The translations under genes were made by a program, and so were the position numbers. A model generated the notes under the pieces. That model was not told the DNA's origin. It was given only the letters and a program-made list of their open reading frames with translations, and ran no database searches. This document shows positions 17,262 to 41,232 of a stretch of DNA of 41,558 nt, piece by piece. Each line of letters starts with the position of its first letter. The stretch's first letter is position 1. This DNA is from Candidatus Omnitrophota bacterium (lineage in GTDB: Bacteria > Omnitrophota > Gorgyraeia > 2-01-FULL-45-10), in NCBI GenBank assembly GCA_016929115.1, contig JAFGJL010000031.1, positions 1 to 41,558 on the forward strand, in the 5' to 3' direction.

Positions 17262-17290
17262 GTTATAAGCCATGACTTATAACCAACTAT
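17262..17290. repeat. Short intergenic inverted repeat with 7-nt register (TTATAAG CCATGAC TTATAAC CAACTAT)
   Basis: TTATAA at 17263 and 17277 (14 nt apart); GTTATAAG/CTTATAAC arms; begins directly after the infC stop. Confidence 0.55.
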
Positions 17291-17308
17291 GCTGTTACAG
17301 GAGAAGCC

Positions 17309-17509
17309 ATGCCTAAATTAAAGACGAGCAAGAGCGTGCAAAAAAGGATACGTTTCAGCAAAAGGGGCAAGATAAAACATTTCCGCGCGGGCAAGAGCCA
17401 TCTCTTGACTAGCAAAAGGGGAAAAAGGAAAAGGCATCTGGCCAAGGCGGGTTACGTGGCGGAAGGCGACGCAAGGGCTATCCGGAAACTGCTGCCGTAC
17501 GGGGCGTAA
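17309..17509 (+). CDS. rpmI: 50S ribosomal protein L35
   Basis: MPKLKTSKSVQKRIRFSKRGKIKHFRAGKSHLLTSKRGKRKRHL. Confidence 0.96.
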   Translation: MPKLKTSKSVQKRIRFSKRGKIKHFRAGKSHLLTSKRGKRKRHLAKAGYVAEGDARAIRKLLPYGA

Positions 17510-17540
17510 GCACAAGGCAGCGCAATAAAGGAGAAGTGAC

Positions 17541-17888
17541 ATGTCACGCGTAAAACACGCAGTTGCTACAAGAAGGCACAGGAAGAGGGTCCTGAAGGCC
17601 GCCGAGGGGCAGTGGGGCGGCAGGCACCGGTTCTACAGGCGGGCGAAGGAATCTGTCGCGAAAGGGATGATGTATAGTTTTCGGGACAGGAAAGCCAAGA
17701 AGCGCGATTTCCGCGGCCTATGGATCGTAAGGATAAACGCCGCCTGCAGGGAATGCGGCATCTCCTATTCCAGTTTCATGAACGGCCTTAAGAAAGCGAA
17801 GATCGTCCTCGACAGGAAGGTGCTTTCCGACATCGCGGTTTCGGACAAGCAGGCGTTTGGCAAGCTCGTCGAGATGGTCAAGGCGTAA
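17541..17888 (+). CDS. rplT: 50S ribosomal protein L20
   Basis: [71 protein letters not shown]. Confidence 0.97.
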
Positions 17889-17906
17889 GAGGGCCAGTCG
17901 TCCTAT

Positions 17907-18941
17907 ATGAAAGAGCTCATACAGCGGTTGGAGCAGGAAGCCTTGCGCGAGATAAGGGCCGCGGCCGGCGGGGAAATGCTCGAAGCGGCGCGGACCAAGT
18001 ATCTCGGCAGGAAAGGCCTGCTCACCGAGGCCTTCAAGAAGATAGGCGAAGCGAGCGCCGAAGAGCGGCCCGCGCTCGGCAGTCTCATAAACGAGGTGAA
18101 GGGCCGCTTGGGCGCGGCGCTTGACGAAAGAACGCGCGCGGCCTCGGGCGGCGAAGAGAAGGCCGAGAAGATAGATATCACGCTTCCGGGCGCGCCGTTC
18201 CGACGCGGCCGCATACATCCTATAACGAAGACCGTCCGGGACATCTCCGACTGCTTCGTCTCGCTCGGTTTTATGGTAGTCGAAGGCCCCGAGATAGAGA
18301 CCGAGCACTATAATTTCGAAGCCCTAAACATCCCCCTTGAGCATCCGTCGAGAGATGCCTTTGACACCTTCTATCTCAACTCAAGGTCGGGGACGCAGCT
18401 TTTGCGCAGCCACACCTCGCCGGTCCAGGCGCGTTTCATGGAAAAGCATAAGCCGCCGTTCGCCATCATCGTCCCTGGGAGGGTCTTCAGGCCCGACGCC
18501 ACGGACGCCACGCACTCTTTCATGTTCCACCAGGTCGAGGGGCTCGTGGTCGGCGACCGGGTAACGTTCGCCGACCTTAAAGGGGTACTCGCGATATTCG
18601 CGCGCCAGATGTTCGGCGTGCAGACCCGGATGCGTTTCCGCCCGAGCTTCTTCCCGTTCACCGAGCCGAGCGCAGAGGTGGATATATCGTGCTTTGCCTG
18701 CGCAAGACAGAAGCATCTTGAGGGGCGCAGGTGCTCTATCTGCGGCGGTAAGGGGTGGCTTGAGATACTCGGCGCCGGGATGGTCAACCCCAAGGTCTTC
18801 AAGGGGGTCGGGTATGACCCGGAAAAGGTCACGGGGTTTGCCTTCGGAATGGGCGTCGAACGGATAGCGATGCTCAAATACGGCATCAGCGACATCAGGC
18901 TTTTCTGCGAGAACGACATTCGGTTTCTACGGCAGTTTTAG
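17907..18941 (+). CDS. pheS: Phenylalanyl-tRNA synthetase alpha subunit
   Basis: HPITKTVRDISDCFVSLGFMVVEGPEIETEHYNFEALNIPLEHPSRD; FRPSFFPFTEPSAEVDI. Confidence 0.97.
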   Translation: MKELIQRLEQEALREIRAAAGGEMLEAARTKYLGRKGLLTEAFKKIGEASAEERPALGSLINEVKGRLGAALDERTRAASGGEEKAEKIDITLPGAPFRRGRIHPITKTVRDISDCFVSLGFMVVEGPEIETEHYNFEALNIPLEHPSRDAFDTFYLNSRSGTQLLRSHTSPVQARFMEKHKPPFAIIVPGRVFRPDATDATHSFMFHQVEGLVVGDRVTFADLKGVLAIFARQMFGVQTRMRFRPSFFPFTEPSAEVDISCFACARQKHLEGRRCSICGGKGWLEILGAGMVNPKVFKGVGYDPEKVTGFAFGMGVERIAMLKYGISDIRLFCENDIRFLRQF

Positions 18942-18990
18942 CTCATAGCTCTTAGGAAAACTTACCTAAGAGCTATGAGCTAATAGCTAA
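18938..18990. repeat. Heptad-iterated hairpin (AGCT words), pheS-pheT junction
   Basis: Perfect 19-bp arms TTAGCTCATAGCTCTTAGG (18938-18956)/CCTAAGAGCTATGAGCTAA (18965-18983); AGCT at 18940, 18947 and 18971, 18978, 18985 (exact 7-nt steps); left arm contains the pheS stop codon. Confidence 0.9.
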
Positions 18991-19011
18991 ACGTTGTATT
19001 CTCGAGGATAT

Positions 19012-21051
19012 ATGCGCGTAAGTTATAACTGGCTCAAGGAATACGTCGATATCAGGCTGGCGCCGGAAAAGCTCGCCGAGCTCCTCACGATGTCGGGGCT
19101 TACCGTTGAATCGCTCCAGCCGCTCGGGGCCGACCACATATTCGAGATCGAGGTCACTTCGAACAGGCCTGACTGGCTGAGCGTTATCGGCATCGCGCGC
19201 GAGGTCGCGGCCATATGCGGCTCCAGGCTCAAGTTGCCGGCGATCGTTCCGGTCAGGAGCCAGGACGCGAAGGGCGGGGCCAGGATCATCGTCGACGATA
19301 GGAAGCTCTGCCCGCGTTACACGGGCCGCGTGATACGGAACGTAAAGATAGGGGAGTCGCCGCATTGGCTCAAGGCCAAGTTAGAAGCGATGGGCCTGCG
19401 GCCCGTCAACAACGCTGTCGATATCACCAACTTCTGCCTCTTCGAGACCGGTGAGCCCATGCACGTCTTCGACCTCGATAAGGTCGCGGGCGGTACCATC
19501 ATAGTGCGCAGGGCGAAAAAAGGTGAGAAGATCTTCACGATAGACGGCGTCGAGAGGGCGCTTGATGATCCGGCCCTCGTGATAGCCGACAGGGAGAAGC
19601 CCATCGCCATCGCCGGTGTAATGGGCGGGGCTGACACCGAGGTTACGGCTTCGACGAAGAATATCCTGCTGGAGGCGGCGTATTTTGACCCGGTCTCTGT
19701 GCGCAGGACCTCCCGGAAGCTCGGCATCTCGACCGAATCAAGTTACCGGTTCGAGCGGAAGGTCGACCTGGACAGTATCGCCTCTTCGTCCGACAGGGCG
19801 ACGGCGCTCATCGCCGAACTTTGCGGCGGGGCGGCCGGCGAACTATTTGACGTGGGTGAGAAGGCAAGGCCCGAAAAGACCGCGCACCTGAGGTATGAAC
19901 GGCTTAACAGCCTGCTGGGCTTGCATATCGAGCCGCCGAAGGCCGCCGCGATCCTTCGCTCCCTCGGCCTTGAGACGAAAGGCTCCTCACGCGACGCGAT
20001 AACCGCTAAGATACCGTCGTTCAGATACGACCTTGATGCCGAGACGGACCTCATAGAGGAGATATCCCGTATATACGGATATGACAGGATACCGCAGACC
20101 ATCCCTGTTGTCGTCGAACAGCCGATAAGGGTGCCTTCAAGCATAGTGATAGGCGACAAGATCAGGGATATATTGGCGGGTTTCGGCCTTGACGAGATCA
20201 TGACCTACAGCCTGTTGGGCAGAAGATCATTGGAGGCGGCCGGCGTCGGGACGGGCGACGCGGTCGAGATAAAGAACCCCCTCTCCAACGAACAGGAGGT
20301 CATGCGGCAAACGCTAATTCCGGGGATGCTTAACGCGGTCCGCTGGAACATCAACCGCAAGAATAAAGACCTGAAGTTGTTCGAGCTGGGCAAGGTTTAT
20401 ATCAAAAGGCACGACGGCGGCTTCAACGAGCATATTTCCCTTTCGATCGGCCTCGCGGGCCAGGCCTCGGCCGGCTGGCTCGAAGGCGCGAGGCAGGAGA
20501 GCTTTTTCGACGTGAAGGGCATAGCCGAGTCGCTTCTTGCGGAGCTGGGGATAAGCGATGTCTCTTTCAGGCCGGCCCAGAGCCCCTTCCTTTCCGCCGG
20601 CGCGGCCGCTTCCCTGGAGTCCGAAGGGAAGACCATAGGCATCCTCGGCCAGGTAAAGGCGTCGGTCCTGAGCGAGTTCGATATAAAGGAAAAGGTGTAT
20701 GTCCTTGAATTGTCGGCCGATGAGCTTTTTTCGCGCGCCCGCCTCGAAAAGACCTTTTCCGAGATACCGCGATACCCTTCCGTGGTCAGGGACATCTCTT
20801 TGATAGCCGACGCGGCAGCGCATAACGAAGACCTCCTCTCAGCCGTCAGGGCCGCGGGCAGCCCTCTTCTCAAGGAAGCCCAACTCATCGACCGTTATAT
20901 AGGCAGTCAGATACCGGACGGCAAGGTAAGCCTCACCTACCGGATCGAATACCAGGATCCGACGAGGACTCTCGAGGACAAGGACATCACGCCGGTCCAC
21001 GCGAGGATCCTCCAGGAGCTCGAGCGCCGTTTCGGCGCAAAACTTCGATAA
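19012..21051 (+). CDS. pheT: Phenylalanyl-tRNA synthetase beta subunit
   Basis: MRVSYNWLKEYVDIRLAPEKLAELLTMSGLTVESL; EVTSNRPDWLSVIGIAREVAAI; C-terminal anticodon-binding domain. ATG at 19012 preferred over the TTG at 18994. Confidence 0.96.
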   Translation: MRVSYNWLKEYVDIRLAPEKLAELLTMSGLTVESLQPLGADHIFEIEVTSNRPDWLSVIGIAREVAAICGSRLKLPAIVPVRSQDAKGGARIIVDDRKLCPRYTGRVIRNVKIGESPHWLKAKLEAMGLRPVNNAVDITNFCLFETGEPMHVFDLDKVAGGTIIVRRAKKGEKIFTIDGVERALDDPALVIADREKPIAIAGVMGGADTEVTASTKNILLEAAYFDPVSVRRTSRKLGISTESSYRFERKVDLDSIASSSDRATALIAELCGGAAGELFDVGEKARPEKTAHLRYERLNSLLGLHIEPPKAAAILRSLGLETKGSSRDAITAKIPSFRYDLDAETDLIEEISRIYGYDRIPQTIPVVVEQPIRVPSSIVIGDKIRDILAGFGLDEIMTYSLLGRRSLEAAGVGTGDAVEIKNPLSNEQEVMRQTLIPGMLNAVRWNINRKNKDLKLFELGKVYIKRHDGGFNEHISLSIGLAGQASAGWLEGARQESFFDVKGIAESLLAELGISDVSFRPAQSPFLSAGAAASLESEGKTIGILGQVKASVLSEFDIKEKVYVLELSADELFSRARLEKTFSEIPRYPSVVRDISLIADAAAHNEDLLSAVRAAGSPLLKEAQLIDRYIGSQIPDGKVSLTYRIEYQDPTRTLEDKDITPVHARILQELERRFGAKLR

Positions 21052-21069
21052 CCGCAAAAGTCTAATAAT

Positions 21070-21098
21070 TTGCTAGCGCATAAGGTTTGTGCTATACT
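21070..21098 (+). promoter_or_regulatory. Promoter for the 6S RNA
   Basis: TTGCTA (21070-21075), 17-bp spacer, TATACT (21093-21098). Confidence 0.6.
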
Positions 21099-21105
21099 TG
21101 GGGTG

Positions 21106-21270
21106 AAAAGACACCCTGCGGTGCTCGTGCTTGAACTGAAGAATCTTGAGCCATTAGAACTTACCCAGGGAGCCTAACTTTGCGCTCGCTTCGGCGTCCG
21201 CAAGAGGGCACCCACCTGTACATAACAGGGTCAAGATAATTCAATTTCACACGGCATCGCGGGGTTTTTT
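21106..21270 (+). ncRNA. ssrS: 6S RNA (SsrS-type RNA polymerase regulator)
   Basis: Closing stem CCCTGCGGTGCTCGTG / CACACGGCATCGCGGGG, second stem TTGAA...ATCTTGA / TCAAGAT..TTCAA, GGGAGCC and CCCACCTG conserved-type segments, apical GCGCTCGCTTCGGCGTCCGC, T6 tract at the end, own promoter. Confidence 0.88.
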
Positions 21271-21285
21271 ATGGCGAGCGGCATT

Positions 21286-21381
21286 AAAATTTTACGGGTC
21301 CTGCCGCGGGGTCGCCTTTCGGTGCTCCGCGGCCTCAAGGCGGACCCCGCGTCACCCGTAAAATTTTCGCAGTCGCTCCGG
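21286..21381. repeat. Nested inverted repeat with AAAATTTTACGGGT arms (family shared with 37325-37725)
   Basis: Perfect 14-bp arms 21286-21299/21354-21367; inner CGCGGGGTC-GCC / GGC-GGACCCCGCG; followed by CAGTCGCTCCGG (21370-21381), also present at 37466-37477. Confidence 0.85.
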
Positions 21382-21438
21382 CAGACACTCCAAAAGGCCT
21401 GTCGAGCGTGCCGAAAAATCACGATAGAGGAAAATTGA

Positions 21439-22749
21439 ATGGATCTTTTCGAAGGAAAGAAGGAAAAGAGACCCAAGACTGAGCCGCTGGCGGTGAGGAT
21501 GAGGCCGCGCTCTCTCGATGGTTTCGTCGGCCAGGAGCATATATTGGGTAAGGACAAGCTCCTCAGGCGCCTGATCGAGTCCGACAAGATCACTTCGCTC
21601 ATCCTTTACGGCCCGCCGGGCTGCGGCAAGACGACTCTGGCCCTCATCATAAGCGAGCGCACAAAGTCGCATTTTGAGCGCATCAACGCCGCCTCGAACA
21701 ATGTTGCGGACATCCGGCGCGTCATCGACGCCGCGAAAAAGCGCGCTTCGATGGACGGCAGGCGCACCATCCTCCTAATCGATGAGATCCATCGCTTCAA
21801 TAAGGCCCAGCAGGACGTCCTCATGCCCGATGTCGAGGCCGGTAATCCTGTCCTCATAGGCACGACCACCCACAACCCCTTCTTCTACGTCAACCAGGCG
21901 CTCCTTTCCCGCTCCCAGGTATTCGAGTTCAAAAAGTTGTCCGATAACGCGATCGCTGCCATCGTAAAAGGCGCCCTTAAAGACAAAGAGAACGGCTTGG
22001 GTAATGTCCCGATAATCATGGATGCCGATGCCGCAAAACATCTGGTGAAGGTCTCGGAAGGTGACGCCCGCCGGACGCTGTCGGCGCTGGAGGTGGGGGC
22101 CCTGACCACGCCCGCCGGCAAAGGCAAGAAGATCCATTTTACGGTGAGGGTCGCCGAGGAATCTATCCAGAAGAAGGCCGTTGTCTACGACAAGGACGAG
22201 GACGGCCATTACGATACCATATCCGCATTCATAAAGTCGATGCGCGGCTCAGACCCGGACGCCGTGCTCTACTGGCTCGCCAAGATGATATACGCCGGCG
22301 AGGATCCGCGTTTTATCGCCCGCAGGATCGTGATATGCGCGGCCGAGGACGTCGGAAACGCGGACCCGCAGGCCATCGTCATCGCCAATGCGGCCCTGCA
22401 GGTCTCGGAATTCGTCGGCATGCCAGAGGCGCGCATACCGTTGGCGCAGGCCGCCGTCTATGTCGCGTGCGCGCCGAAGTCGAACGCGGCGTACCTCGGC
22501 ATTGAGAGCGCATTGAAGGACGTCGAGGAAGGCAAGACGCTCGACGTGCCGGACCACTTGAAGGACGCCAGCCTCGACGCTGATGCCTTCGGCCACGGGA
22601 AAGGCTACAAATACGCGCACGATTTTAAGGACCATTACGTGAAGCAGGAATACAAGCCTTCGGCCAAGAAATATTATATCCCAACGACGATGGGCTACGA
22701 GGCCAGGATAAAGGAATGGCTTGAGAGACTTAAGAAAAGCGAAGGTTAA
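21439..22749 (+). CDS. rarA: Replication-associated recombination protein RarA/MgsA (AAA+ ATPase)
   Basis: MRPRSLDGFVGQEHILGKDKLLRRLIESDKITSLILYGPPGCGKTTLA; LLIDEIHRFNKAQQDVLMPDVE. Confidence 0.95.
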   Translation: MDLFEGKKEKRPKTEPLAVRMRPRSLDGFVGQEHILGKDKLLRRLIESDKITSLILYGPPGCGKTTLALIISERTKSHFERINAASNNVADIRRVIDAAKKRASMDGRRTILLIDEIHRFNKAQQDVLMPDVEAGNPVLIGTTTHNPFFYVNQALLSRSQVFEFKKLSDNAIAAIVKGALKDKENGLGNVPIIMDADAAKHLVKVSEGDARRTLSALEVGALTTPAGKGKKIHFTVRVAEESIQKKAVVYDKDEDGHYDTISAFIKSMRGSDPDAVLYWLAKMIYAGEDPRFIARRIVICAAEDVGNADPQAIVIANAALQVSEFVGMPEARIPLAQAAVYVACAPKSNAAYLGIESALKDVEEGKTLDVPDHLKDASLDADAFGHGKGYKYAHDFKDHYVKQEYKPSAKKYYIPTTMGYEARIKEWLERLKKSEG

Positions 22750-22760
22750 ATCAAAATATA

Positions 22761-22860
22761 CAAACTACAAATCACAAACAAACCACAATTTACAATTACC
22801 AAAACCTTTTGGTCATTTGGTATTGCAATTTGTTTGTGATTTGGGATTTGTGATTTGGAA
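22761..22860. repeat. Heptad-iterated inverted repeat (CAAA / TTTG words), rarA to ThiI-like junction
   Basis: CAAA/CAAT at 22761, 22768, 22775 | 22779, 22786, 22793, 22800; TTTG at 22829 | 22833, 22840, 22847, 22854; shared 15-nt arm CAAATCACAAACAAA; the 4-nt phase slip is mirrored in both arms. Confidence 0.85.
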
Positions 22861-22878
22861 ATTAAAGGGCGTTCAATC

Positions 22879-23880
22879 GTGAATAAGAAGGCGATTGCAT
22901 TACTATCCGGCGGGCTCGACTCGATACTCGCGATCCGCCTCCTGCAGGAGCAGGGGGTAGAGATCGAGGCGGTCAACTTCTATATCGATTTCGCCGCCTG
23001 CATACCGAAGATCGGGGGCGAGGACGCCGCGAAGAAGGCCGCGCGTCTCCTTAATATCCCGCTCACCGTGGTCGATATCACGCCCGAATATCTCGAGATG
23101 TTCAAAAATCCCAGGCATGGCTACGGCGCCAATATCAATCCCTGTATCGACTGCAAGATATTCATGCTTAAAAGAGCCAAGGCGATGATGGCCGAGAGAG
23201 GCGCCTCGTTCTTGGTAACGGGGGAGGTGCTCGGTGAGCGTCCGATGTCGCAGCGCAGGGACGCGCTCAACATCATCGAGCGGGATGCCGGGGTGCGCGG
23301 TATACTTCTGCGGCCGTTGTCAGCCAAGGTCTTGAACCCCACGCTTCCGGAAAAAGAAGGTGCGGTCGATCGCGAAAAATTACTCGGTATCACAGGCCGG
23401 GGCAGAAAGCCCCAGATGGAACTTGCGGAGAAGTTCGGCATCAAGGAATACCCCAACCCCGCAGGCGGCTGCCTCCTTACCGACCCCGGATTCACCGGTC
23501 GCGTGGAGGACCTCGTCAAACATAACGCTCTCGACATCGAGAACCTGAAACTCCTGAAGTGCGGCAGGCATTTCAGGCTTTCGCCGACGGCAAAGCTGGC
23601 AGTCGGACGGGACGACCGCGACAATGACCTTGTCATGGCCGAGGCGAAAGAAGGCGATATATGCCTGCGTCTCGCCGATTACCCGAGCCCTTTCTGCCTA
23701 TTGCGTGGCGCCACCGACGATGACACTGTCCATGAGGCGGCACGGGTTGTCGCCTATCACACCAAGCTCCGGGACAGGGAAAGCCTGCGCATTGATTACT
23801 GGAAAGAGGGCTCTCCGGAGCACAGAACGATATCCGTCAAGCCGGCTTCGCTCGAAGAAATAAGCGCCATGCGAATATAG
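22879..23880 (+). CDS. ThiI/MnmA-like PP-loop tRNA sulfurtransferase-type protein
   Basis: KKAIALLSGGLDSILAIRLLQEQGVEIEAVNF PP-loop; NPCIDCKIFMLKRAKAM; RPLSAKVLNPTLPEKEG. GTG at 22879 preferred because the tracked TTG start lies inside the repeat. Confidence 0.8.
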   Translation: MNKKAIALLSGGLDSILAIRLLQEQGVEIEAVNFYIDFAACIPKIGGEDAAKKAARLLNIPLTVVDITPEYLEMFKNPRHGYGANINPCIDCKIFMLKRAKAMMAERGASFLVTGEVLGERPMSQRRDALNIIERDAGVRGILLRPLSAKVLNPTLPEKEGAVDREKLLGITGRGRKPQMELAEKFGIKEYPNPAGGCLLTDPGFTGRVEDLVKHNALDIENLKLLKCGRHFRLSPTAKLAVGRDDRDNDLVMAEAKEGDICLRLADYPSPFCLLRGATDDDTVHEAARVVAYHTKLRDRESLRIDYWKEGSPEHRTISVKPASLEEISAMRI

Positions 23881-23893
23881 CCGCCGAAAATAT

Positions 23894-23922
23894 TTGACAC
23901 AAATGGGCGGAGATGTTTTAAT
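23894..23922 (+). promoter_or_regulatory. Promoter for thi4
   Basis: TTGACA (23894-23899), 17-bp spacer, TTTAAT (23917-23922). Confidence 0.6.
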
Positions 23923-23958
23923 AGCGGAAGAGATGCGGTCAATCTGAGGAGGTTTCGC

Positions 23959-24735
23959 GTGAAACTGGACGAGATAAAGATATCGAAGGCGATAATCAAG
24001 GCCTATAACGAGAAGTTGATAAACGCGCTGGATATCGATGTCGCTATAGTCGGGGCCGGGCCTGCGGGCATGGCCTGCGCGTATTATCTCGCGAAAGCGA
24101 AAAAGAGGGTCGCGATATTCGAGCGGAAACTCTCGGTCGGCGGCGGGATGTGGGGCGGCGGCATAATGTTCAACGAGATAGTGGTCCAGGATAAGGCCAA
24201 AAAGATACTGGATGAGTTTGGCGTGCGGACAAGGCTGTATGAGAAGGGCTATTTTCTCGCCGATTCCATAGAATCAGTGTCCACTATATGCTCGAAGATG
24301 GTTAAGGCGGGCGTGAAGGTCTTTAACCTGCTGAGTGCCGAGGATGTCTTAGTGAGGCATAGAAGGGTTTGCGGCCTAGTCCTCAACTGGACGGCCGTGG
24401 AGATGGCGAAACTGCATGTCGACCCCATCAGCATGAAGGCGCGATTCGTAATCGACGCCACCGGCCACGCAGCAGAGGTCGTGCGCATAGTCGAGCGCAA
24501 ATCCGGCATCCGGCTAAAGACTAGGACCGGCAAAGTCATGGGAGAGCAATCTATGTGGGCCGATGTAGGGGAAGACACGATAGTCAAGAATTCGAAAGAG
24601 GTCTGCCCGGGCCTCTATACCTGCGGCATGTGCTCAAATGCTGTTTTCGGCGGCCCGCGCATGGGGCCGATATTCGGCGGCATGCTGCTCTCAGGTAAGA
24701 AGGTTGCCGGAGAACTGCTCGGGAAGCTGTATTAA
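23959..24735 (+). CDS. thi4: Thi4-family thiazole synthase (HVDP variant, predicted sulfide-dependent)
   Basis: [92 protein letters not shown]-type end. Confidence 0.9.
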
Positions 24736-24752
24736 ATCCACAAATCCACCAC

Positions 24753-24794
24753 ACCCGCCCCGGCCGGGAACCATGGTTCCCGGCCGGGGCGGGT
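24753..24794. terminator. Perfect 42-bp palindrome downstream of thi4 (terminator candidate)
   Basis: ACCCGCCCCGGCCGGGAACCATGGTTCCCGGCCGGGGCGGGT equals its own reverse complement with no spacer; followed by AATATTTTC. Confidence 0.75.
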
Positions 24795-24811
24795 AATATT
24801 TTCAAAAAAAC

Positions 24812-24839
24812 TTGACAAAAGTGTTATTTCAGGTATAAT
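24812..24839 (+). promoter_or_regulatory. Consensus sigma70 promoter for rrf2-cysK operon
   Basis: TTGACA (24812-24817), 16-bp spacer, TATAAT (24834-24839); downstream TTACTAA (24842-24848)/TTAGTAA (24869-24875) inverted repeat. Confidence 0.8.
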
Positions 24840-24884
24840 TATTACTAAGCCAATCATATTTATAGGGTTTAGTAAAAGGACAGG

Positions 24885-25343: not shown

Positions 25344-25359
25344 AGGTAAGGGGGCTTTG

Positions 25360-27512: not shown

Positions 27513-27526
27513 AGCTAAGAGCTAAA
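27513..27526. repeat. Two-copy heptad word (AGCTAAG AGCTAAA) before the permease start
   Basis: AGCT at 27513 and 27520, just after the DUF39 stop; same word as at 18971-18990. Confidence 0.45.
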
Positions 27527-32485: not shown

Positions 32486-32585
32486 CAGTAGACAGTAGCG
32501 CGACACTAACGGAAGAAGCGCCGCCATTTGCCAAAGGCCCATACCGCCTTAAGGTATTCCATTCCGGCAGCGCGCCGCGTCGCGC
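32486..32585. other. Structured intergenic region between 5-FCL and rny
   Basis: CAGTAGA CAGTAGC heptads (32486-32499); nested pairings GCGCGAC (32498-32504)/GTCGCGC (32579-32585), CGGAA (32510-32514)/TTCCG (32562-32566), ATACC (32541-32545)/GGTAT (32553-32557). Confidence 0.45.
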
Positions 32586-32616
32586 GAGATCTACGTTTTT
32601 AAATAGGGGGGGCAGT

Positions 32617-34188
32617 ATGTACAAGGATATGACGGTAGTTTATATCGGGCTTGCAACATTGGGCGCGGTCTCCTTCTTCCTGTTGGGCTACTCGATAAGA
32701 AAATTCTACGCCAAGAAGAAGGTCAGGACAGCGGAGGAGAACGCGAGAAGGGCGCTTGAGAACTCGAAGGTCGAGGCCGACAAGATACGCCGCCAGGCGG
32801 AGATCGAGGCCAAGGATTTCCTGTTGAAAGCGCGCTCGGAATTCGAGAACGAGACAAGGGCGCGGCGGCAGGAGGGCATCACGCTCGAGAAGCGCCTGAT
32901 CCAGAAAGAGGAGAACCTCGACAGGAAGGTCGACCTTATCGACCGCAAGGAGAAGGACCTCGAGCGGAGGGACCAGTCGATCTCCGCGCGCGAAAAGAAC
33001 ATCGGCACCAAGGAGAGGGAGCTGGAATCGCTTTTGCAGGCGGAGAAGGAACAGCTGCAAAGGGTGTCCGGCATGACCAGGGACGAGGCGAGACAGGTGT
33101 TGTTGAAGAGGCTGGAGGACGATGTGAAGCAGGAAGCGGCCCTCATGATAAAGAGGACCGAGGATGAGGCGCGCGAGAAAGCCGACAAGGAGGCCCGCAA
33201 GATCATAGGGCTCGCCATACAGAAATGCGCCGCCGAGCACACGGTCGAGACGACGGTGAGCGTGGTGAACCTGCCGAACGACGAGATGAAGGGCCGCATC
33301 ATAGGTCGCGAGGGCCGCAACATACGCGCCCTTGAGGTCGCGACGGGCATCGATGTCATCATAGACGATACGCCGGGGGCGGTCATACTCTCCGGCTTCG
33401 ATCCGATAAAGCGCGAGATCGCCAAGATGTCGCTAGAAAAGCTTCTCGAGGACGGCCGCATACATCCCGGGAGGATCGAAGAGGTAGTCGAAAAGACGAA
33501 GAAGGAGCTTGACAACCTGATCCGCGAAGAGGGCGAGAAGGCGCTCTTCGAGACCGGGCTGCACGGCATGCATCCGGAGCTGGTTAAGCTGTTGGGCCGG
33601 TTGAAATACCGAACGAGCTACGGCCAGAACGTCCTGCAGCACTCGAAAGAGGTGGCGCACCTGATGGGCGTCATGGCCGGCGAGCTTAAACTGGACCCGA
33701 CGCTCGCGAAGCGCATAGGGCTTCTGCACGACATCGGGAAGTCCGTGAGCCACGAGGTCGAGGGCACGCATTCGAAGATAGGCTCGGACCTCGCGCGCAA
33801 ATACGGCGAGTCGGAGAACATCTGCCACGCTATCGAGGCGCACCACCAGGACATCGAGGCGAAGACGCTCCTCGCCGTAATGGCGCAGGCGGCCGACGCG
33901 ATAAGCGCGTCAAGGCCGGGCGCGCGGCGCGAGACGCTCGAGGTCTACATCAAGCGCCTTGAAAAGCTTGAGTCGATAGCCGATTCGTTCAAGGGCGTCG
34001 AGAAGGCCTACGCGATACAGGCCGGGCGCGAGATACGCGTCATCGTCCAGCCCGAGAAGATAACCGACGCGCAGGCGGCTGTGCTGGCGCGCGATATCAC
34101 GAAAAAGATCGAAGAGGGCCTGGAGTATCCGGGCCAGATCAAGGTGACGGTCATTAGAGAAACGCGAGCAGTAGAATATGCGAAATAA
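32617..34188 (+). CDS. rny: Ribonuclease Y
   Basis: N-terminal TM plus coiled coil, [63 protein letters not shown]. Confidence 0.97.
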
Positions 34189-34257
34189 TAGCGTATAGCG
34201 GATAGCGTTTAGCGTATAGAAAACCTAAACGCTATACGCTCCACGCTAAACGCTAAA
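34189..34257. repeat. Heptad-iterated hairpin (AGCG / CGCT words), rny-ymdB junction
   Basis: AGCG at 34190, 34197, 34204, 34211 and CGCT at 34230, 34237, 34244, 34251: four units per arm at exact 7-nt spacing, imperfect ~30-nt arms, starts directly after the rny stop. Confidence 0.9.
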
Positions 34258-34268
34258 ACGAGGATTTT

Positions 34269-35048
34269 ATGCACATTCTGTTCATCGGCGACATAGTGGG
34301 TGAGCCTGGAAGGCGCGCGGTCAAGGAGCTCCTGCCGAAGATATGCAAAAAAGAGGCGATCGATTTCGTCATAGCGAACGGCGAGAACGTCGCCGGCGGA
34401 AGCGGTATTACCCCGCAGCTGGCGAAAGAGCTTTTCGGCTACGGCATCGACGTCCTGACGACCGGCGACCATGTCTGGAAGCGCAAAGAGATCGTCGAGG
34501 CGGAGGAGTGGGACGGCCGGCTGCTCAGGCCCGCCAACTACCCCCGCCAGACGCCCGGGTTCGGCGCAACGGTCGTCGAGTCGAAGGCCGGCGTCAGCGT
34601 CGCAGTCATCGATCTTTTGGGGAGGGTCTTCATGCAGGCGGTGGAATGCCCGTTCAGGGTGGCGAAGGAAGAGATAGAGCGCGTCAAGAACAAGGCGCGC
34701 GTCATCGTCATCGACATGCACGCCGAGGCGACCAGCGAGAAGATAGCACTCGGCTGGTACCTGGACGGCCTTGTGAGCGCGATAATAGGCACGCACACGC
34801 ACGTCCAGACCGCCGACGAGAAGATATTGCCGGGCGGCACGGCGTTCATCTGTGACGCCGGCATGACCGGGCCGCTCGATTCGGTCATAGGCAGGAAGAA
34901 GGAACAGGTATTAACGCGTTTTGTCACGCAGATGCCTGCAAGGTTTGAAGTGGCGGACAACGACGTCCAGCTTCATGGCGTGATCGTCGACGTGGACGAT
35001 AAGACCGGCAAGGCGTATTCGATAAAACGGATACAGGAAAAGTTGTAG
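34269..35048 (+). CDS. ymdB: YmdB-family metallophosphoesterase
   Basis: MHILFIGDIVGEPGRRAVKELLPKICKKEAIDFVIANGENVAGGSGITPQLAKELF; DMHAEATSEKIALGWYLDG. Confidence 0.94.
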   Translation: MHILFIGDIVGEPGRRAVKELLPKICKKEAIDFVIANGENVAGGSGITPQLAKELFGYGIDVLTTGDHVWKRKEIVEAEEWDGRLLRPANYPRQTPGFGATVVESKAGVSVAVIDLLGRVFMQAVECPFRVAKEEIERVKNKARVIVIDMHAEATSEKIALGWYLDGLVSAIIGTHTHVQTADEKILPGGTAFICDAGMTGPLDSVIGRKKEQVLTRFVTQMPARFEVADNDVQLHGVIVDVDDKTGKAYSIKRIQEKL

Positions 35049-35072
35049 CGCGAGGATCACGAAAGGCAACAC

Positions 35073-35921
35073 ATGCCGTACAAGATACTGGAGAAGGCCA
35101 GGCTGAATTCCGTAGTCTGGAAGATAAAGGTGCACGCCCCGACACCGGCAAAGGCCGCGAGGGCGGGCCAATTCATCATCCTGAGGATCGACGAAAAGGG
35201 TGAGCGGATACCGCTCACGATAAGCGATGCCGACCCTGCGAAAGGTGTCCTTACGATCATATTTCAGGAGGCAGGAAAGACGACGAAGAAGATGGCGGCG
35301 ATGAAGGCGGGCGACAGCTTCGCCGACGTATTCGGCCCGCTCGGGAAGGCGACGCATTTCGGCAAGATAGGCAAGGTCGTGCTGGTCGCCGGCGGCGTCG
35401 GGATAGCGGAAATACTTCCGGTGGCGCAGTACGCCAAGACATGCGGCAATTTCGTTGCGACGATCATCGGCGCCAGGACGAAAGAGCTCCTGATACTGGA
35501 AGACGAGCTCAAAAAGTGGAGCGACAGGCTCATCGTGACGACCGACGACGGCTCGTACGGGACGAAGGCCCTCGTTACGGGGCCGCTCAAGGAGCTGCTC
35601 GAAAAAGAGAAATTCGGCCTCTGTTACTGTGTCGGGCCGGACATCATGATGAAGTTTGTCGCCGAGACGACGAGGCCCTTCGGCCTCAAGACGTTCGTCT
35701 CGCTTGACGCCAACATGGTCGACGCGACCGGCATGTGCGGGACCTGCCGCGTGACGGTCGGCGGCAAGACGCGGTTCACGTGCGTCGACGGGCCTGAATT
35801 CGACGCCCATCTCGTCGACTGGGATGAATTCCTGAAGAGGCAGAAGCGCTTTGTGGACGAGGAAAAGGCCTCATTGGCGGCGTTCGGAGAGCAGCATAAG
35901 GAATGCATGCACAAGGTGTGA
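35073..35921 (+). CDS. Ferredoxin:NADP(H) oxidoreductase/sulfide dehydrogenase small subunit (SudB/NfnA-like)
   Basis: FAD/NAD-binding reductase fold; C-terminal GMCGTCRVTVGGKTRFTCVDGPEFDAHLVDWDEFLKRQKRF; adjacent to SudA-like gene. Confidence 0.88.
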   Translation: MPYKILEKARLNSVVWKIKVHAPTPAKAARAGQFIILRIDEKGERIPLTISDADPAKGVLTIIFQEAGKTTKKMAAMKAGDSFADVFGPLGKATHFGKIGKVVLVAGGVGIAEILPVAQYAKTCGNFVATIIGARTKELLILEDELKKWSDRLIVTTDDGSYGTKALVTGPLKELLEKEKFGLCYCVGPDIMMKFVAETTRPFGLKTFVSLDANMVDATGMCGTCRVTVGGKTRFTCVDGPEFDAHLVDWDEFLKRQKRFVDEEKASLAAFGEQHKECMHKV

Positions 35922-35922
35922 T

Positions 35923-37326
35923 ATGACAAAGATAAAGATGAGAGAACAGGACCCTGCTGAGAGGGTCAAGAATTTCAATGAAGTGGCCATGGGCCTGAGC
36001 GAAGAGGACGCCGTAGCGGAGGCCAAAAGGTGCCTGCAGTGCAAGAAAGCGCTCTGCATGAGCGGCTGCCCGGTGGAGATAGACATCCCGGCCTTCATAA
36101 AGGATATCGTCGAGGGAAAATACGAAAAGGCCCTGTTTAAGATCAGGGAAAAGAATTCGCTTCCCGCCGTATGTGGAAGGGTCTGCCCGCAGGAGGACCA
36201 GTGCGAGAAGGCCTGCGTCCTCTCGAAAAAGGGCGCGCCGATCGGCATCGGATATCTCGAGAGGTTCGTGGCGGACTGGGAATTGAAGAAAAAGAGGGAG
36301 TATGTGGCGCACACCGATCTCCCGAAAGAGTCGCCTGCCCATAAGAAGCACGCCCACGGCAAAAAGGTCGCCGTTATAGGCTCCGGGCCGGCCGGCCTCA
36401 CGTGCGCCGGAGACCTGGCGAACATGGGCTACGACGTGACGGTCTTCGAATCGCTGCACAAGCCGGGCGGGGTGCTGATGTACGGCATCCCGGAGTTCAG
36501 GCTCCCGAAGGCTATAGTAGAGGCGGAGATGAATTACGTGAAACATATCGGTGTCAAGCTCGAGGTGAACTTCCTCGCGGGAAAGACGGGCACCATCGAC
36601 GAGCTGAGGGAGCAGGGGTTCAAGGCCTTCTTTGTAGGCATCGGAGCGGGGCTGCCGTATTTTCTCGGCGTAGAGGGTGAGAACCTGAACGGCATATACT
36701 CGGCCAACGAATTCTTGACGCGCACCAACCTGATGAAAGCGTATCTTTTTCCGGAATACGACACTCCGATAAGGGTCGGAGAGCGCGTCGGCGTTGTAGG
36801 CGCCGGCAATGTCGCTATGGACTCCGCGCGCTGCGCCCTGAGGCTCGGCGCAAAAGAGGTCTCCATCATCTACCGCAGGAGCGAGCAGGAGATGCCCGCC
36901 AGGCGGGAGGAGATCATCAGGGCGAAGGAAGAAGGCATAAGGTTTGAGCTTTTGACGAACCCCACGAAATTTTTCGGCGACGAAAAAGGCTGGGTCAAAG
37001 GGGCGGAACTGTTGCGCAACGAGCTCGGCGCCCCGGACGCGAGCGGCCGCCGCAGGCCGGTGCCGATAAAGGGCTCCGAGTTCAGGATGAAGCTCGATAC
37101 GGTTATCATCGCTGTTGGGCAGGGGTCGAACCCGCTCCTTCCGGCGACGCTGCCCGACCTTAAAGTGACCGACGACGGTACGATAGTTTGTAACGATGAT
37201 CTCATGACGTCGATACCGGGCGTCTTTGCCGGCGGCGATATCGTCACCGGCGCGGCTACGGTCATCTCGGCGATGGGCATGGGCAAGAAGGCCGCCCGCT
37301 CGATTGACAAATACCTGATGAGTTAA
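35923..37326 (+). CDS. Glutamate synthase small-subunit-like flavoprotein (SudA/NfnB/GltA-like)
   Basis: CLQCKKALCMSGCPVEIDIPAFI, CGRVCPQEDQCEKACVL, VAVIGSGPAGLTCAGDLANMGYDVTVFE. Confidence 0.92.
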   Translation: MTKIKMREQDPAERVKNFNEVAMGLSEEDAVAEAKRCLQCKKALCMSGCPVEIDIPAFIKDIVEGKYEKALFKIREKNSLPAVCGRVCPQEDQCEKACVLSKKGAPIGIGYLERFVADWELKKKREYVAHTDLPKESPAHKKHAHGKKVAVIGSGPAGLTCAGDLANMGYDVTVFESLHKPGGVLMYGIPEFRLPKAIVEAEMNYVKHIGVKLEVNFLAGKTGTIDELREQGFKAFFVGIGAGLPYFLGVEGENLNGIYSANEFLTRTNLMKAYLFPEYDTPIRVGERVGVVGAGNVAMDSARCALRLGAKEVSIIYRRSEQEMPARREEIIRAKEEGIRFELLTNPTKFFGDEKGWVKGAELLRNELGAPDASGRRRPVPIKGSEFRMKLDTVIIAVGQGSNPLLPATLPDLKVTDDGTIVCNDDLMTSIPGVFAGGDIVTGAATVISAMGMGKKAARSIDKYLMS

Positions 37327-37519
37327 ATTTTTTCGCTCCACCCGGAAGGCGTCACTTTTGCGGCCGCCCTCCGCTTGCCGCGGCCTCAGATTAGGCATCT
37401 TCGGCCGCTGTGCAAAAATTTTGACGGTGAAGCCTGGACCGCCATAAGGTGTCAAAATTTTTGGACAGTCGCTCCGGGCGGACCACAAAAGTTCCGCCTC
37501 TTGCGAAGCGAAAAAATTT
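37325..37519. repeat. Large nested inverted repeat, element A
   Basis: Outer AAATTTTTTCGCT (37325-37337)/AGCGAAAAAATTT (37507-37519), GGCGtcACTTTTG/CAAAAGTtcCGCC, inner CAAAAATTTTGAC (37413-37425)/GTCAAAATTTTTG (37451-37463); contains CAGTCGCTCCGG (37466-37477). Confidence 0.85.
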
Positions 37520-37535
37520 TGATTCTTTTGAGAGG

Positions 37536-37725
37536 GTGAAATTTTACGGGTGGCTCGGGCCCAGCCTTGAGGGCCGTAGGCGGCTGAGTGTTTACGGGAT
37601 GGGGTTATCAGCCGCCGAAGGCGGCATGAAAGATACCCGTCTAGCATGCGTGTCGAGTGTAAACCCCGTACGAAGCCGCCTAAAGGACCGAAAGGCGGCC
37701 CGAGACAGGACCCGTAAAATTTCAC
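37536..37725. repeat. Large nested inverted repeat, element B
   Basis: Perfect 16-bp arms GTGAAATTTTACGGGT/ACCCGTAAAATTTCAC, then CTCGGGCC (37554-37561)/GGCCCGAG (37697-37704), TAGGCGGCT (37577-37585)/AGCCGCCTA (37674-37682), inner GCCGCCGAAGGCGGC hairpin. Confidence 0.9.
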
Positions 37726-37736
37726 AAAACCATAAT

Positions 37737-38948
37737 ATGCCGAACGAGCAGAAAGAAAAGCACGTATATACGGTCACCGAGCTCACGAAGTATATACGCG
37801 TGATACTCGAGGATTCGTTCCCGAACGTGTGGATCGAGGGTGAGATATCGAATTACACTCTCCATTCATCGGGCCACATGTATTTTTCCCTGCGCGACGC
37901 CAATTCGGTCCTGAAGTGCGCGATGTTCAAGCGCGCAAACGAGAAGCTGAAATTCAAGCCGAAGGACGGGATGAAGGTCATCTGTTTCGGCTCGATAAGC
38001 GTCTACGAGGCGCGCGGCGATTACCAGCTCATCGTCCAGGAGATAGAGCCGAAGGGGGTCGGCGCGCTGCAGCTGCAGTTCCAGCAGCTGAAGGAGAGGC
38101 TCTTCAAGGAAGGGCTCTTCGATGAGCGCCACAAGATACGGATACCGTTCCTGCCGATGAGGATCGGGGTGGTCACGAGCCCTACAGGGGCGGCGATACG
38201 CGATATCCTGAACATATCGCGCAGGCGCTTTTCGAACGTCGAGATAATCATAAATCCGGTCAAGGTGCAGGGCGAAGGCGCAAAAGACGAAATAGCCGCG
38301 GCGATAAGGCAGTTCAACAAGCTCGCCAATATAGACGTAATGATCGTGACAAGGGGCGGAGGGAGCCTTGAAGACCTCTGGCCGTTCAACGAGGAGGCCG
38401 TGGCGCGGGCCATCTACGATTCGGAGATACCCGTCATCAGCGCCGTGGGCCACGAGATAGACTACACCATCTCGGACTTTGTCGCCGACTTCAGGGCGCC
38501 GACGCCGTCCGCGGCGGCCGAGCTCGTCATCCCGAACAAGGACGACCTCGTCGGGCTTATCAGGACATCGGTGACCAGGCTGAAGAACGCCCTTATTAAC
38601 GAGCTTGAGATGCTCCAGGAAAAGCTCGCCAAGCTCAGGGGAAGCTATGTATTGCGCCAGCCCCTCAACATGGTCATACAGTACCAGCAGAAGATCGACG
38701 GCCTTGTCGAGGACCTTATGCTCCATACCGACCACCTCGTCATACGGCGCGAGGAAAGCTTTAAGCTCCTTGCGGGCAAGCTCGATACGCTGAGCCCGCT
38801 CGCCATACTCAATAGAGGGTATAGCATAACCGCGAAGCTGCCCGAGGGGCGGATAATCAAAACGGCATCCGATATAAAACAAGGCGATCTGGTCGAGACG
38901 AAACTGGGTAAAGGAAAGTTCACAAGTAAGGTAGAAAGTGTAAGTTGA
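37737..38948 (+). CDS. xseA: Exodeoxyribonuclease VII large subunit
   Basis: YTVTELTKYIRVILEDSFPNVWIEGEISNYTLHSSGHMYFSLRD; IVTRGGGSLEDLWPFNEEAVARAIYDSEIPVISAVGHEIDYTISDFVAD. Confidence 0.97.
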   Translation: MPNEQKEKHVYTVTELTKYIRVILEDSFPNVWIEGEISNYTLHSSGHMYFSLRDANSVLKCAMFKRANEKLKFKPKDGMKVICFGSISVYEARGDYQLIVQEIEPKGVGALQLQFQQLKERLFKEGLFDERHKIRIPFLPMRIGVVTSPTGAAIRDILNISRRRFSNVEIIINPVKVQGEGAKDEIAAAIRQFNKLANIDVMIVTRGGGSLEDLWPFNEEAVARAIYDSEIPVISAVGHEIDYTISDFVADFRAPTPSAAAELVIPNKDDLVGLIRTSVTRLKNALINELEMLQEKLAKLRGSYVLRQPLNMVIQYQQKIDGLVEDLMLHTDHLVIRREESFKLLAGKLDTLSPLAILNRGYSITAKLPEGRIIKTASDIKQGDLVETKLGKGKFTSKVESVS

Positions 38949-38966
38949 AATTTCTATAAATTTCAA
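38945..38966. repeat. Inverted repeat TTGAAATTT-CTAT-AAATTTCAA at xseA stop
   Basis: Perfect 9-bp arms; includes the xseA TGA. Confidence 0.6.
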
Positions 38967-38987
38967 TCTGGTCTATGGAGGGATGAT

Positions 38988-39278
38988 ATGGCGGACATGA
39001 AATTCGAAGAGGCGCTGAAAAAACTGGAAAAGATAGTCGAGGACCTTGAGGCAGGCGACCTTTCGCTCGACGACGCGCTCGAAAAGTACGAAGAGGGCAT
39101 AAAGCTCTCGAAGCTCTGCGCGAAAAAATTGGAGCTTGCCAAAAAGAAAGTCGAACTCCTGGTCAAGTCCGAGGACGGCTCCGTCGAGCTGAAGCCGTTC
39201 GACGAATCAACGGCCGGGGATGAAAAGCCGGCGCAGGAAGCGAAGAAGAAAAAGGTAAAAGAGGAAACCCCGTTTTAA
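38988..39278 (+). CDS. xseB: Exodeoxyribonuclease VII small subunit
   Basis: FEEALKKLEKIVEDLEAGDLSLDDALEKYEEGIKLSKLCAKKLELAKKKVELL. Confidence 0.95.
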   Translation: MADMKFEEALKKLEKIVEDLEAGDLSLDDALEKYEEGIKLSKLCAKKLELAKKKVELLVKSEDGSVELKPFDESTAGDEKPAQEAKKKKVKEETPF

Positions 39279-39281
39279 TAC

Positions 39282-41213
39282 ATGACGCCCGATAAGACCT
39301 ATGCGACAGAAACAGCCAAGGCGGAACGGCTCCTGCCGGCTATAACCGGCCCGGCCGACCTCCGCAAGCTCCCGCTCACGGAACTGCCCAAATTGGCGGC
39401 CGAGATACGCGAGGAGATACTGAGGACCGTGTCGAGAACGGGGGGGCATCTCGCATCGAGCCTTGGCTCCGTTGAGCTCGCCATCGCGGCCCACTACGTC
39501 TTTAATACGCCGCATGATATTATCCTCTGGGACGTCGGCCACCAGGCATATGCCCACAAGATCCTGACCGGGCGCCTTAAAAGATTCCCAAGCCTAAGGC
39601 AGCTGGGGGGCATGAGCGGCTTCCCGAACAAGGACGAGAGCCCGGAATACGACGTATTCACCTGCGGCCACAGTTCGACGTCGATATCGGCCGCGCTGGG
39701 CCTGGCCGTGGCGCGCGACCTGAAGAACGAGAAACACAAGATCGTCTCCGTCATCGGCGACGCGTCGCTGGCCGGCGGCATGGCGTTCGAGGCGATGAAC
39801 CATGCCGGGCAGATGAACAAAGACCTTATCGTCATACTGAACGACAATGAGCTTTCGATCTCGCAGTCCGTCGGCGCGCTCTCAAGGTACCTTAACAGGA
39901 TAATCACAAATCCCGCTTATAATAAGATACGCAAGGATGTCGAGAAGGTCCTGAAGCGCATACCGCGCTTCGGTTTCAGGGCCTACCGGGCGGCGCGCAG
40001 GCTCGAGGAAGGCCTGAAGAACCTTCTCGTGCCCGGCATGCTCTTCGAGGAGCTGGGTTTCAGGTATTTCGGGCCCATAGACGGCCACAACATCGCCCAG
40101 CTCGTCTCGGTGTTCAGGAACACGAAAAACCTGAATGAGCCGATCCTGATCCATCTCGTCACCAAGAAGGGAAAAGGCTATAAATTCGCCGAGGCGAACC
40201 CGGCCGACTTCCACGGCACAGGCCCCTTTGACCTTGACACCGGCCATAAGGCATGCAAGAAAGAGGCGAAGAGCTTCACCGACGCCTTCGGCGAGACGGT
40301 CGTCGAGCTGGCGGCGAGAGACCCGCGCATGGTCGGGATCACGGCGGCGATGGTCGATGGCACAGGCTTCAACAAATTTTGCCAGCTCTTCCCTGAGCGC
40401 TTCTTTGACGTCGGAATAGCCGAAGAACACGCGGTCACTTTCAGCGCCGGGCTCTGCCGCGGAGGCTTTAAGCCTGTCATCGCCGTTTATTCCACCTTCC
40501 TGCAGCGCGGTTATGACCAGCTTATACACGATATATGCCTGCAGAAGCTGCCGGTCGTTTTCTGTCTCGACCGGGCCGGCATCGTCGGAGAGGATGGCCC
40601 GACCCATCAGGGGACATTCGACATCGCGTATCTGAGGCATATGCCGAACCTTACGGTCATGGCGCCGAAGGACCCTGAAGAGCTGAAGAGGATGCTTGAG
40701 TTTGCTGTGCGCCAGCCGATGCCGGTCGCCATCCGATATCCCAAGGGAGCGGCGTTCAGGGTATCGCCGGAGGCGCGCAGCCCCGCCGCCGCGGCGCCGA
40801 TACAATACGGGAAGGCGGAGGTCCTTCGGGAAGGCAGGGACGTGGCGATCCTCGCCGCGGGGAGCATGGTCAATATCGCCATGGAAACGGCGCTTTTACT
40901 TTCGCGCAAAAATGTAAGCGCGATGGTGGTGAACAGCCGCTTCATCAAGCCGCTCGACGAAGAACTTTTGGAGCGCGTATTCGCCGGGGCGAAAAAGGCG
41001 GTTACCGTGGAGGAGGGCGTATTGGAAGGCGGCTTCGGCAGCGCGGTGCTGGAATTCGCGGAGCGCGAGAACATCAAGGGCGTCAAGATAAGGCGCATAG
41101 GGCTGCCGGACATCTTTCTTGAACACGGGAAACGCGATGAGATATTCCTTAAGTACAACTTGACACCCGATGCTATTTGTGATGTGATTATGAATGAGGT
41201 CATTAAGAGTTAA
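39282..41213 (+). CDS. dxs: 1-deoxy-D-xylulose-5-phosphate synthase
   Basis: GGHLASSLGSVELAIAAHYVFNTPHDIILWDVGHQAYAHKILTGR; GDASLAGGMAFEAMNHAG; DRAGIVGEDGPTHQGTFDI. Confidence 0.97.
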   Translation: MTPDKTYATETAKAERLLPAITGPADLRKLPLTELPKLAAEIREEILRTVSRTGGHLASSLGSVELAIAAHYVFNTPHDIILWDVGHQAYAHKILTGRLKRFPSLRQLGGMSGFPNKDESPEYDVFTCGHSSTSISAALGLAVARDLKNEKHKIVSVIGDASLAGGMAFEAMNHAGQMNKDLIVILNDNELSISQSVGALSRYLNRIITNPAYNKIRKDVEKVLKRIPRFGFRAYRAARRLEEGLKNLLVPGMLFEELGFRYFGPIDGHNIAQLVSVFRNTKNLNEPILIHLVTKKGKGYKFAEANPADFHGTGPFDLDTGHKACKKEAKSFTDAFGETVVELAARDPRMVGITAAMVDGTGFNKFCQLFPERFFDVGIAEEHAVTFSAGLCRGGFKPVIAVYSTFLQRGYDQLIHDICLQKLPVVFCLDRAGIVGEDGPTHQGTFDIAYLRHMPNLTVMAPKDPEELKRMLEFAVRQPMPVAIRYPKGAAFRVSPEARSPAAAAPIQYGKAEVLREGRDVAILAAGSMVNIAMETALLLSRKNVSAMVVNSRFIKPLDEELLERVFAGAKKAVTVEEGVLEGGFGSAVLEFAERENIKGVKIRRIGLPDIFLEHGKRDEIFLKYNLTPDAICDVIMNEVIKS

Positions 41214-41232
41214 CAGTTAACAGTTGATAGTA
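41208..41232. repeat. Heptad tandem word (AGTTAAC AGTTAAC AGTTGAT AGTA) at dxs stop
   Basis: AGTT at 41208, 41215, 41222 and AGTA at 41229; first unit contains the dxs TAA, last abuts the next ATG. Confidence 0.8.

Follow-up and report, generated by a model that had tools for sequence, protein, structure and literature searches.

Many gene junctions in the genome of a Candidatus Omnitrophota bacterium carry imperfect tandem arrays of 7-nt units (heptad arrays), whose period, pairing and position are common across genera while the repeated word is not. With modest confidence, we read these sites as intercistronic, dispersed hairpin cassettes of REP/ERIC-like character, the arms of which comprise about four 7-nt (rarely 8-nt) units and face each other across a short loop. 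The stretch of DNA at the centre of this study (hereafter the window, 41,558 nt) is situated on contig C60 of a metagenome-assembled genome of 1.50 Mb in 79 contigs, of which the window and 80 further stretches, together 1.08 Mb, were analysed; loci of this and other genomes are designated by L and a number. The original prediction, made from the window, had proposed a family defined by its syntax and not by one sequence, and this idea holds: period and position, as well as a pairing that had gone unnoticed, are shared while the words differ.

In the following we will refer to the genome of the window as G000, to a genome from a sister genus of the same family as G002, and to an Elusimicrobia genome as G167. 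Locus L093 is assigned to G002 owing to its identity (100%) over 3014 nt with the G002 locus L219, and the closest pheS relatives of the window all belong to Candidatus Omnitrophota. Genes were called by a simple script of our own, and 840 gene junctions formed the set for the genome-wide test. The array score is the best local self-match per lag in each gene junction; scores of 12 or more were regarded as strong, and dinucleotide-preserving shuffles served as the control.

Period, pairing and place of the arrays

Strong scores at lag 7 were obtained in 59 junction regions, as against 0.2 in the shuffled sequences, and at lag 14 in 42 regions, while each of the remaining lags (4-6, 8-13, 15 and 16) yielded between 0 and 3. 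The original prediction had named an excess of lag 7 over other lags as its own test, which it thus passed; apart from 7 and its double, 14, no lag is conspicuous. Heptad arrays exceed chance, and the tandem 7-nt units are located mainly between genes. When the lag-match is averaged over the intergenic DNA of the window itself, no clear peak at lag 7 appears, which indicates that the signal resides in local arrays and not in the mean. Of 41 gene ends, 6 bear a doublet of only two units at lag 7, compared with 1-3 at other lags, so that several of the weaker cases listed originally are due to chance. Long arrays of GGTCTAC/GGTCTTT were also found at contig ends (L004:1-62 and L039:1-68); arrays in such positions suggest that the longest ones are probably under-represented in the assembly.

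Where two arrays of one word adjoin, counted over all DNA examined, 80 pairs are inverted and 6 direct. Sorted by period, the inverted pairs number 78 for period 7 and seven for period 8, with none for periods 6, 9, 10, 11 or 12. A typical arm consists of four units plus three nucleotides, and the commonest array length is accordingly 31 nt. Folded as RNA, the hairpins reach z-scores of -5 to -9.6, which agrees with the earlier suggestion that RNA structure is a likely common denominator. At L002:5925-6001 in the window's genome, both arms are built of 8-nt words (AGCTCATA/AGCTCATG) that are one base longer than the AGCT word; such a change, present in every unit of both arms, is to be expected from concerted turnover, though the 8-nt words may also have arisen independently. 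The same locus also holds perfect fourfold arrays of GGTCACCA, likewise of period 8, at 7079-7648.

Among the 76 intergenic elements with both neighbours known, 69 are flanked by co-directional genes. Between such genes the median gap is 10 nt if no element is present and 82.5 nt if there is one, and the elements fill the space from the stop codon to the ribosome-binding site in operons with a normal gap of about 10 nt. Frequently the first TAG of the element is the stop codon itself, and most paired elements finish 2-40 nt before the next start. The predicted placement at or just after an upstream stop codon is borne out overall, with 45 of 74 elements starting no more than 5 nt from the stop (random placement in the same gaps gives 32%), but it weakens in gaps of more than 100 nt, where only 8 of 22 elements hug the stop; the rule is thus partly a by-product of tight gaps.

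Words, frames and copying

The 132 arrays of the window's genome fall into 22 word clusters, dominated by TAGCGNN (about 36), TAGCTNN (about 25) and AATTATN (21), with one to eleven members in each of the others. It had been supposed that every copy is unique and would escape repeat finders; this is not so for AGCG, AGCT and AATTATG, which are dispersed families whose copies BLAST recovers at 85-97% identity. In most large families (TAGCGNN, TAGCTNN, TCAGCNN in G002 and AGTTCNN in Elusimicrobia) the unit has about five nearly fixed and two variable positions, a contrast somewhat inflated by anchoring on a core. Mismatches crowd into the two most variable phases (280 of 338, compared with 250 +- 4 expected). 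Copies of the AATTATG family are 86-97% identical and share a conserved core of about 45 nt. Elements of this family, about 110 nt long, are present in L008, L015, L017, L049, L052, L055, L067 and L081; their core, which lies between the heptad arms in either orientation, is a conserved two-hairpin structure (GTCGCTTCGCGAC ... GGCCCGAAGGGC).

How the word varies at a given position can be seen in the operon thrS-infC-rpmI-rplT-pheS-pheT, the five junctions of which were compared between the window and 20 other Omnitrophota loci. Of about 87 junctions, 16 carry arrays, and no two genomes with an array at a given junction use the same word there. Between pheS and pheT, for example, 10 of the 20 other loci have a gap of just 1-6 nt without an array. 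The window has AGCT there, L092 has AGAAACC, L093 AGCG and L103 TTCGCTT, and L100 has a weak array resembling AAGATAA. Locus L093 is occupied throughout, with three words distributed over its five junctions.

In G002, different words are also found inside one constant frame. At their 5' end the cassettes of this genome read TAG-(A)GTCAGACAACGAGTT or TAG-AGTCGAAAACTCA at the stop codon, and at their 3' end GC-TATAACGAGG, which is a Shine-Dalgarno sequence and directly precedes the start codon (in short, TAG-GAGTCGAAAACTC ... TATAACGAGG-start). The arms enclosed by this frame are AGCG, AGCTTTC, CCGTNNT/AGTTCGT or GGTTATC. Its 3' part occurs at 29 distinct sites, with a median distance of 124 nt from stop to Shine-Dalgarno sequence, and the upstream stop is TAG in 16 of 25. 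Locus L092 has a constant 3' end of its own (TTATGCTATTRCA, four sites), and in G167 arrays of several words end in one common flank, GATTTTA-start. The latter genome has 43 lag-7 arrays in 164 kb, a density biased upwards because the contigs were picked for holding a word, and 16 inverted pairs versus one direct. Its loci L226-L235 contain, beside the 7-nt arrays, many paired 8-nt arrays (CGTATAAT, AATCTCCT and CTTACTCA) and 10-nt arrays (CACTTCCTTT / AGTGAACAAA) that score as unpaired.

Whole elements of G002, with their frame, their loop and the two arms, recur between sites and in both orientations, which argues for the copying of existing elements and against their invention site by site. 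Between the AGCG elements of G000, the arms are 86-90% identical, but identity falls to near-random values in the loops (35%) and flanks (28-30%). As loops and flanks are shared too in G002, that genome holds recent copies, and those of G000 look old with their arms preserved. The order of units in AGCG arms is retained from site to site within a genome and across genera, but the two arms of an element differ in the order of their variable dinucleotides (TA.GA.TT.TA versus TA.TT.GA.TA or TT.TG.TA.TT). This suggests that the arms have been inherited as two unlike halves and have not been remade by template switching.

Change at the level of single units is seen in two copies of tuf, one followed by rpsJ and the other by rpmG, which were taken from overlapping contig ends where the assembly breaks. 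They have the array and both flanks in common and differ by exactly one heptad (three versus four units), so that slippage, one of the origins originally proposed, finds support for units in this one case. The tuf homology runs through the heptad array to the start codons of rpsJ and rpmG (L047:1-87, L056:5361-5447 and L063:1-87), and its continuation past the stop codon would be as in gene conversion. The abundance of arrays is patchy: AGCG matches range from 0 to 107 per genome, with the maximum in G002, and array counts from none in 80 kb (G018) and one in 70 kb (G011) to 13 in 75 kb (G025). Some arrays are both perfect and long, such as AGCTATC with 11.6 units in L195.

Elements of the window

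All four sites that had been singled out as clear cases (18938, 22761, 34189 and 41208) are imperfect 7-nt arrays, and all lie on the forward strand, as do the weaker sites below. The pheS-pheT junction holds an AGCT-family hairpin (18939-18990; -32.3 kcal/mol, z -9.6), composed of the left arm TAGCTCATAGCTCTTAG (18939-18955), in which the first TAG is the pheS stop codon, the loop GAAAACTTAC and the right arm CTAAGAGCTATGAGCTAATAGCTAA (18966-18990). A hairpin of the CAAATCA/TTTGTGA family (22761-22857; z -5.0) follows the 3' end of a gene for a RarA-type ATPase; its left array is degenerate (22761 to about 22800), its right array spans 22833-22857, and a relative is found at L036:6838-6941. 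The gap separating rny (RNase Y) from the gene that follows contains an AGCG-family hairpin (34188-34257; -34.6 kcal/mol, z -7.2) with the left arm at 34188-34219, which is identical to several further loci of the genome, the loop AAAAC at 34220-34224 and the right arm at 34225-34257. The fourth site is an unpaired AGTTAAC array of three units (41203-41231), which overlaps the dxs stop codon, ends just before the start of a ferredoxin-like gene and forms no strong hairpin (z -1.5).

The weaker sites of the original list fared unevenly. The sequence AGCTAAGAGCTAAA at 27513-27526 is probably the remnant of an AGCT-family right arm, being identical to right-arm ends in L036, L026 and L059, with no left arm remaining. 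At the infC-rpmI junction (17262-17283) there is a short plain inverted repeat, GTTATAAG-CCATGA-CTTATAAC, with a lag-7 score of 0 and no heptad array; four other loci (L082, L088, L092 and L093) have heptad arrays at this junction, built of other words. The two-unit doublets CAGTAGA CAGTAGC (32486-32499) and TAGTGTC TAGTCTG (9692-9705, matching at 5 of 7 positions) are at chance level.

The surrounding genes (thrS-infC-rpmI-rplT-pheS-pheT, rarA, rny and dxs) are ordinary. A scan of the window with Rfam 15 revealed no heptad element above the gathering score; its only matches were a 6S RNA directly 3' of pheT (21110-21269) and three tRNAs (14679-15004). Two dispersed repeats were noted in passing: one in the window at 37368-37725, unrelated to the heptads, with pieces of 111-197 nt at 87-92% identity in L069 and L039, and one of about 120-170 nt at L093:13698-14001, which recurs at several G002 sites with 93-96% identity.

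Alternative explanations and known heptamer repeats

If the sites are hairpin cassettes, each would act, or be tolerated, as a long stem-loop that separates two cistrons of a polycistronic mRNA. The stem-loop might stabilise or delimit the upstream message, and the downstream gene would receive its own ribosome-binding site. A cassette that brings its own stop codon and ribosome-binding site could insert into a closely packed operon and still leave the following gene expressed, which would explain why its ends are kept. Cassettes may spread within the genome by copying, through recombination between cassettes or by some enzyme, and their words would turn over fast, with tandem units gained, lost and homogenised by slippage or conversion as the pairing of the arms is preserved. 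The constraint would then be to keep a stem between two cistrons.

Several observations weigh against this account. No inverted partner was found for 59 of the 132 arrays (including that at 41208), even with a search for degenerate partners, so that about half of the arrays of the genome are unpaired and the hairpin model covers only part of them. At the variable dinucleotides the AGCG arms match in 26 of 106 cases, as opposed to 38.8 +- 3.8 in shuffled pairs, and this lower complementarity speaks against a simple selection for perfect pairing. Nor does this anti-matching prove selected internal loops, because two unlike arms copied in both orientations would give an equal statistic. The frame motifs GAGTCGAAAACTCA and GCTATAACGAGG were found in none of 37 relatives, which leaves G002 as the only one of 38 genomes with the constant frame. 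Finally, no signal of a RAYT, a reverse transcriptase or target-site duplication was detected; as no link to a transposase was found, we propose copying by another route, together with slippage of units.

These last results bear on an explanation that we consider unlikely, namely that the elements are miniature transposable elements (MITE or REPIN) moved by a trans-acting transposase, for which the heptad arrays are terminal binding sites. Dispersed near-identical families with inverted ends (AATTATG, and AGCG in G002), the whole-element copies of G002 with conserved loop and flanks, the AATTATG core and the patchy abundance between genera all fit such elements. Target-site duplications, however, showed no excess (k=5-9, 32 pairs), a search of G000 revealed no reverse transcriptase, and of six RAYT (PF01797) loci checked, five had no adjoining arrays and the sixth had one weak array. 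RAYT and AGCG counts per genome are uncorrelated as well (Spearman 0.11, p 0.52), and a REP/RAYT link was rejected on both grounds. A viral origin was likewise rejected, the AGCG arm being absent from IMG/VR. Genes for Y1 (RAYT-like) transposases are present in 30 of 38 relatives' genomes, in up to 11 copies, and display no link to heptad arrays.

Slightly less probable is that the arrays are ordinary long simple-sequence repeats without function, produced by replication slippage with an inherent 7-nt preference, such as would follow from a 7-nt polymerase contact (Mrazek 2007, as cited in PMC4679880 and PMC4692102), and confined to their locations by purifying selection. Heptamers are reported to be the commonest class of long-unit repeats in many bacteria (PMC4679880, PMC4692102), and both the tuf copies and the long perfect array in L195 are consistent with such an origin. 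It is, however, disfavoured for the paired class. It predicts neither the 80:6 excess of inverted pairs nor conserved arms of four units (31 nt) whose variants follow one order at many sites, shared frames, or pairs of period 8 in the absence of periods 6 and 9-12.

It seems improbable that a global regulator binding DNA or RNA uses the arrays as its operators. The five fixed and two variable positions of the unit do resemble a recognition core, and paired hepta- and octanucleotide arrays on opposite strands exist in Geobacter metallireducens (PMC2700814). Yet at least 22 word clusters per genome, with differing words at one junction, would require many regulators or a reader of spacing only, and the neighbouring genes are housekeeping operons (pheS-pheT, infC-rpmI-rplT).

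A further origin raised in the original prediction, namely that template switching or a terminal-transferase-like process during repair creates the words anew wherever an array stands, is very improbable. The many low-copy words with one to three arrays each would accord with it, but the main words are dispersed copies, and the AGCG arms, with their unit order kept within the genome and across genera, are not the exact reverse complements that fresh template switching would give; for a terminal-transferase-like origin we found no evidence, the G002 sites sharing whole elements with arms, loop and frame. Intrinsic transcription terminators, which strong stem-loops at gene ends might suggest, can hardly account for elements that have neither a U-tract nor a T-run after the right arm and that lie inside operons (pheS-pheT, rny and its neighbour) and mostly between co-directional genes.

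That the system is undescribed, as had been suggested, is not supported. Xanthomonas has heptamers arrayed close to stop codons, with inverted pairs among them (PMC4692102), and further heptamer arrays are on record from cyanobacteria, Beggiatoaceae (PMC4679880) and Geobacter (PMC2700814). Similar in form are the GGGAATC/GGGGAYT heptamers of Xanthomonas (also present in Nostoc), which form imperfect arrays with fixed and variable positions and a preference for four units (Rehm et al. 2015, PMC4692102). They comprise 70-75 inverted pairs, mostly between co-directional genes, on the sense strand within 50 bp of the stop codon (some overlapping it) and on the antisense strand within 50 bp of the next start; the authors argue for G-quadruplex formation by GGGAATC arrays (PMC4692102). 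Our elements share with them the inverted pairs near the stop, the arms of about four units and the co-directional neighbours. By contrast, Xanthomonas uses one G-rich word, while here at least 22 word clusters occur per genome, words are interchangeable in one frame, and the main ones (TAGCGNN, TAGCTNN, AATTATN and CAAATCA) contain no GGG, so that tracts for G-quadruplexes are absent.

Cyanobacterial STRRs/LSSRs, with three heptanucleotides in Calothrix (as cited in PMC4692102 and PMC4679880), likewise have period 7, several words per genome and a mostly intergenic location as far as these citations describe them, but few inverted pairs are reported in Nostoc (PMC4692102) and a stop-to-Shine-Dalgarno cassette does not figure in those accounts. 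TAACTGA repeats of Beggiatoaceae, cyanobacteria and Bacteroidetes are intergenic heptamer arrays of patchy occurrence too, in which close strains differ by indels in 7-nt steps. They are, however, one-word direct repeats just 5' of start codons, with one indirect repeat in 170 sets, and have been interpreted in Beggiatoaceae as translational control (PMC4679880). Classes 1-4 of Geobacter metallireducens (GGGACCG family), read as regulator sites, are tandem heptamers and octamers paired on opposite strands; the passages concerned (PMC2700814) agree with our data in unit length, opposite-strand pairing, variable spacing and several classes per genome, and differ in that they do not deal with placement from stop to ribosome-binding site or with words swapped in one frame. 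REP/BIME/REPIN and ERIC elements are also dispersed imperfect palindromes inside operons, but lack the heptad syntax, and REP is tied to RAYT, to which no link exists here. No description of such elements in Omnitrophota was found in the open-access literature. What is added here is the presence of many interchangeable words that are not G-rich, constant frames from stop to Shine-Dalgarno sequence, inverted pairing confined to periods 7 and 8, and words that differ between relatives at one and the same operon junction.

The prevalence of heptamers over all other long-unit repeats in many bacteria has posed a standing question since 2007, when a 7-nt polymerase contact was proposed (Mrazek 2007, as cited in PMC4679880 and PMC4692102). 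This idea can be tested here, as period-8 pairs of the same architecture exist in the same genome, in Elusimicrobia and among the published Geobacter arrays. The G-quadruplex idea is open to test as well, since the main words keep four units, inverted pairing and place without G-tracts. Only tentatively, and with considerable doubt, do we suggest that a single class of intercistronic RNA/DNA element, characterised by geometry and not by sequence, is common to bacteria from several phyla, with paired arms of 7- or 8-nt period extending from stop codon to ribosome-binding site, words actively rewritten in concert in both arms, and the cassette serving as a functional operon separator. Were this true, hairpin geometry and not sequence would be what is conserved between the genes of an operon, and a cassette that keeps its ends and changes its words would allow that question to be asked directly.

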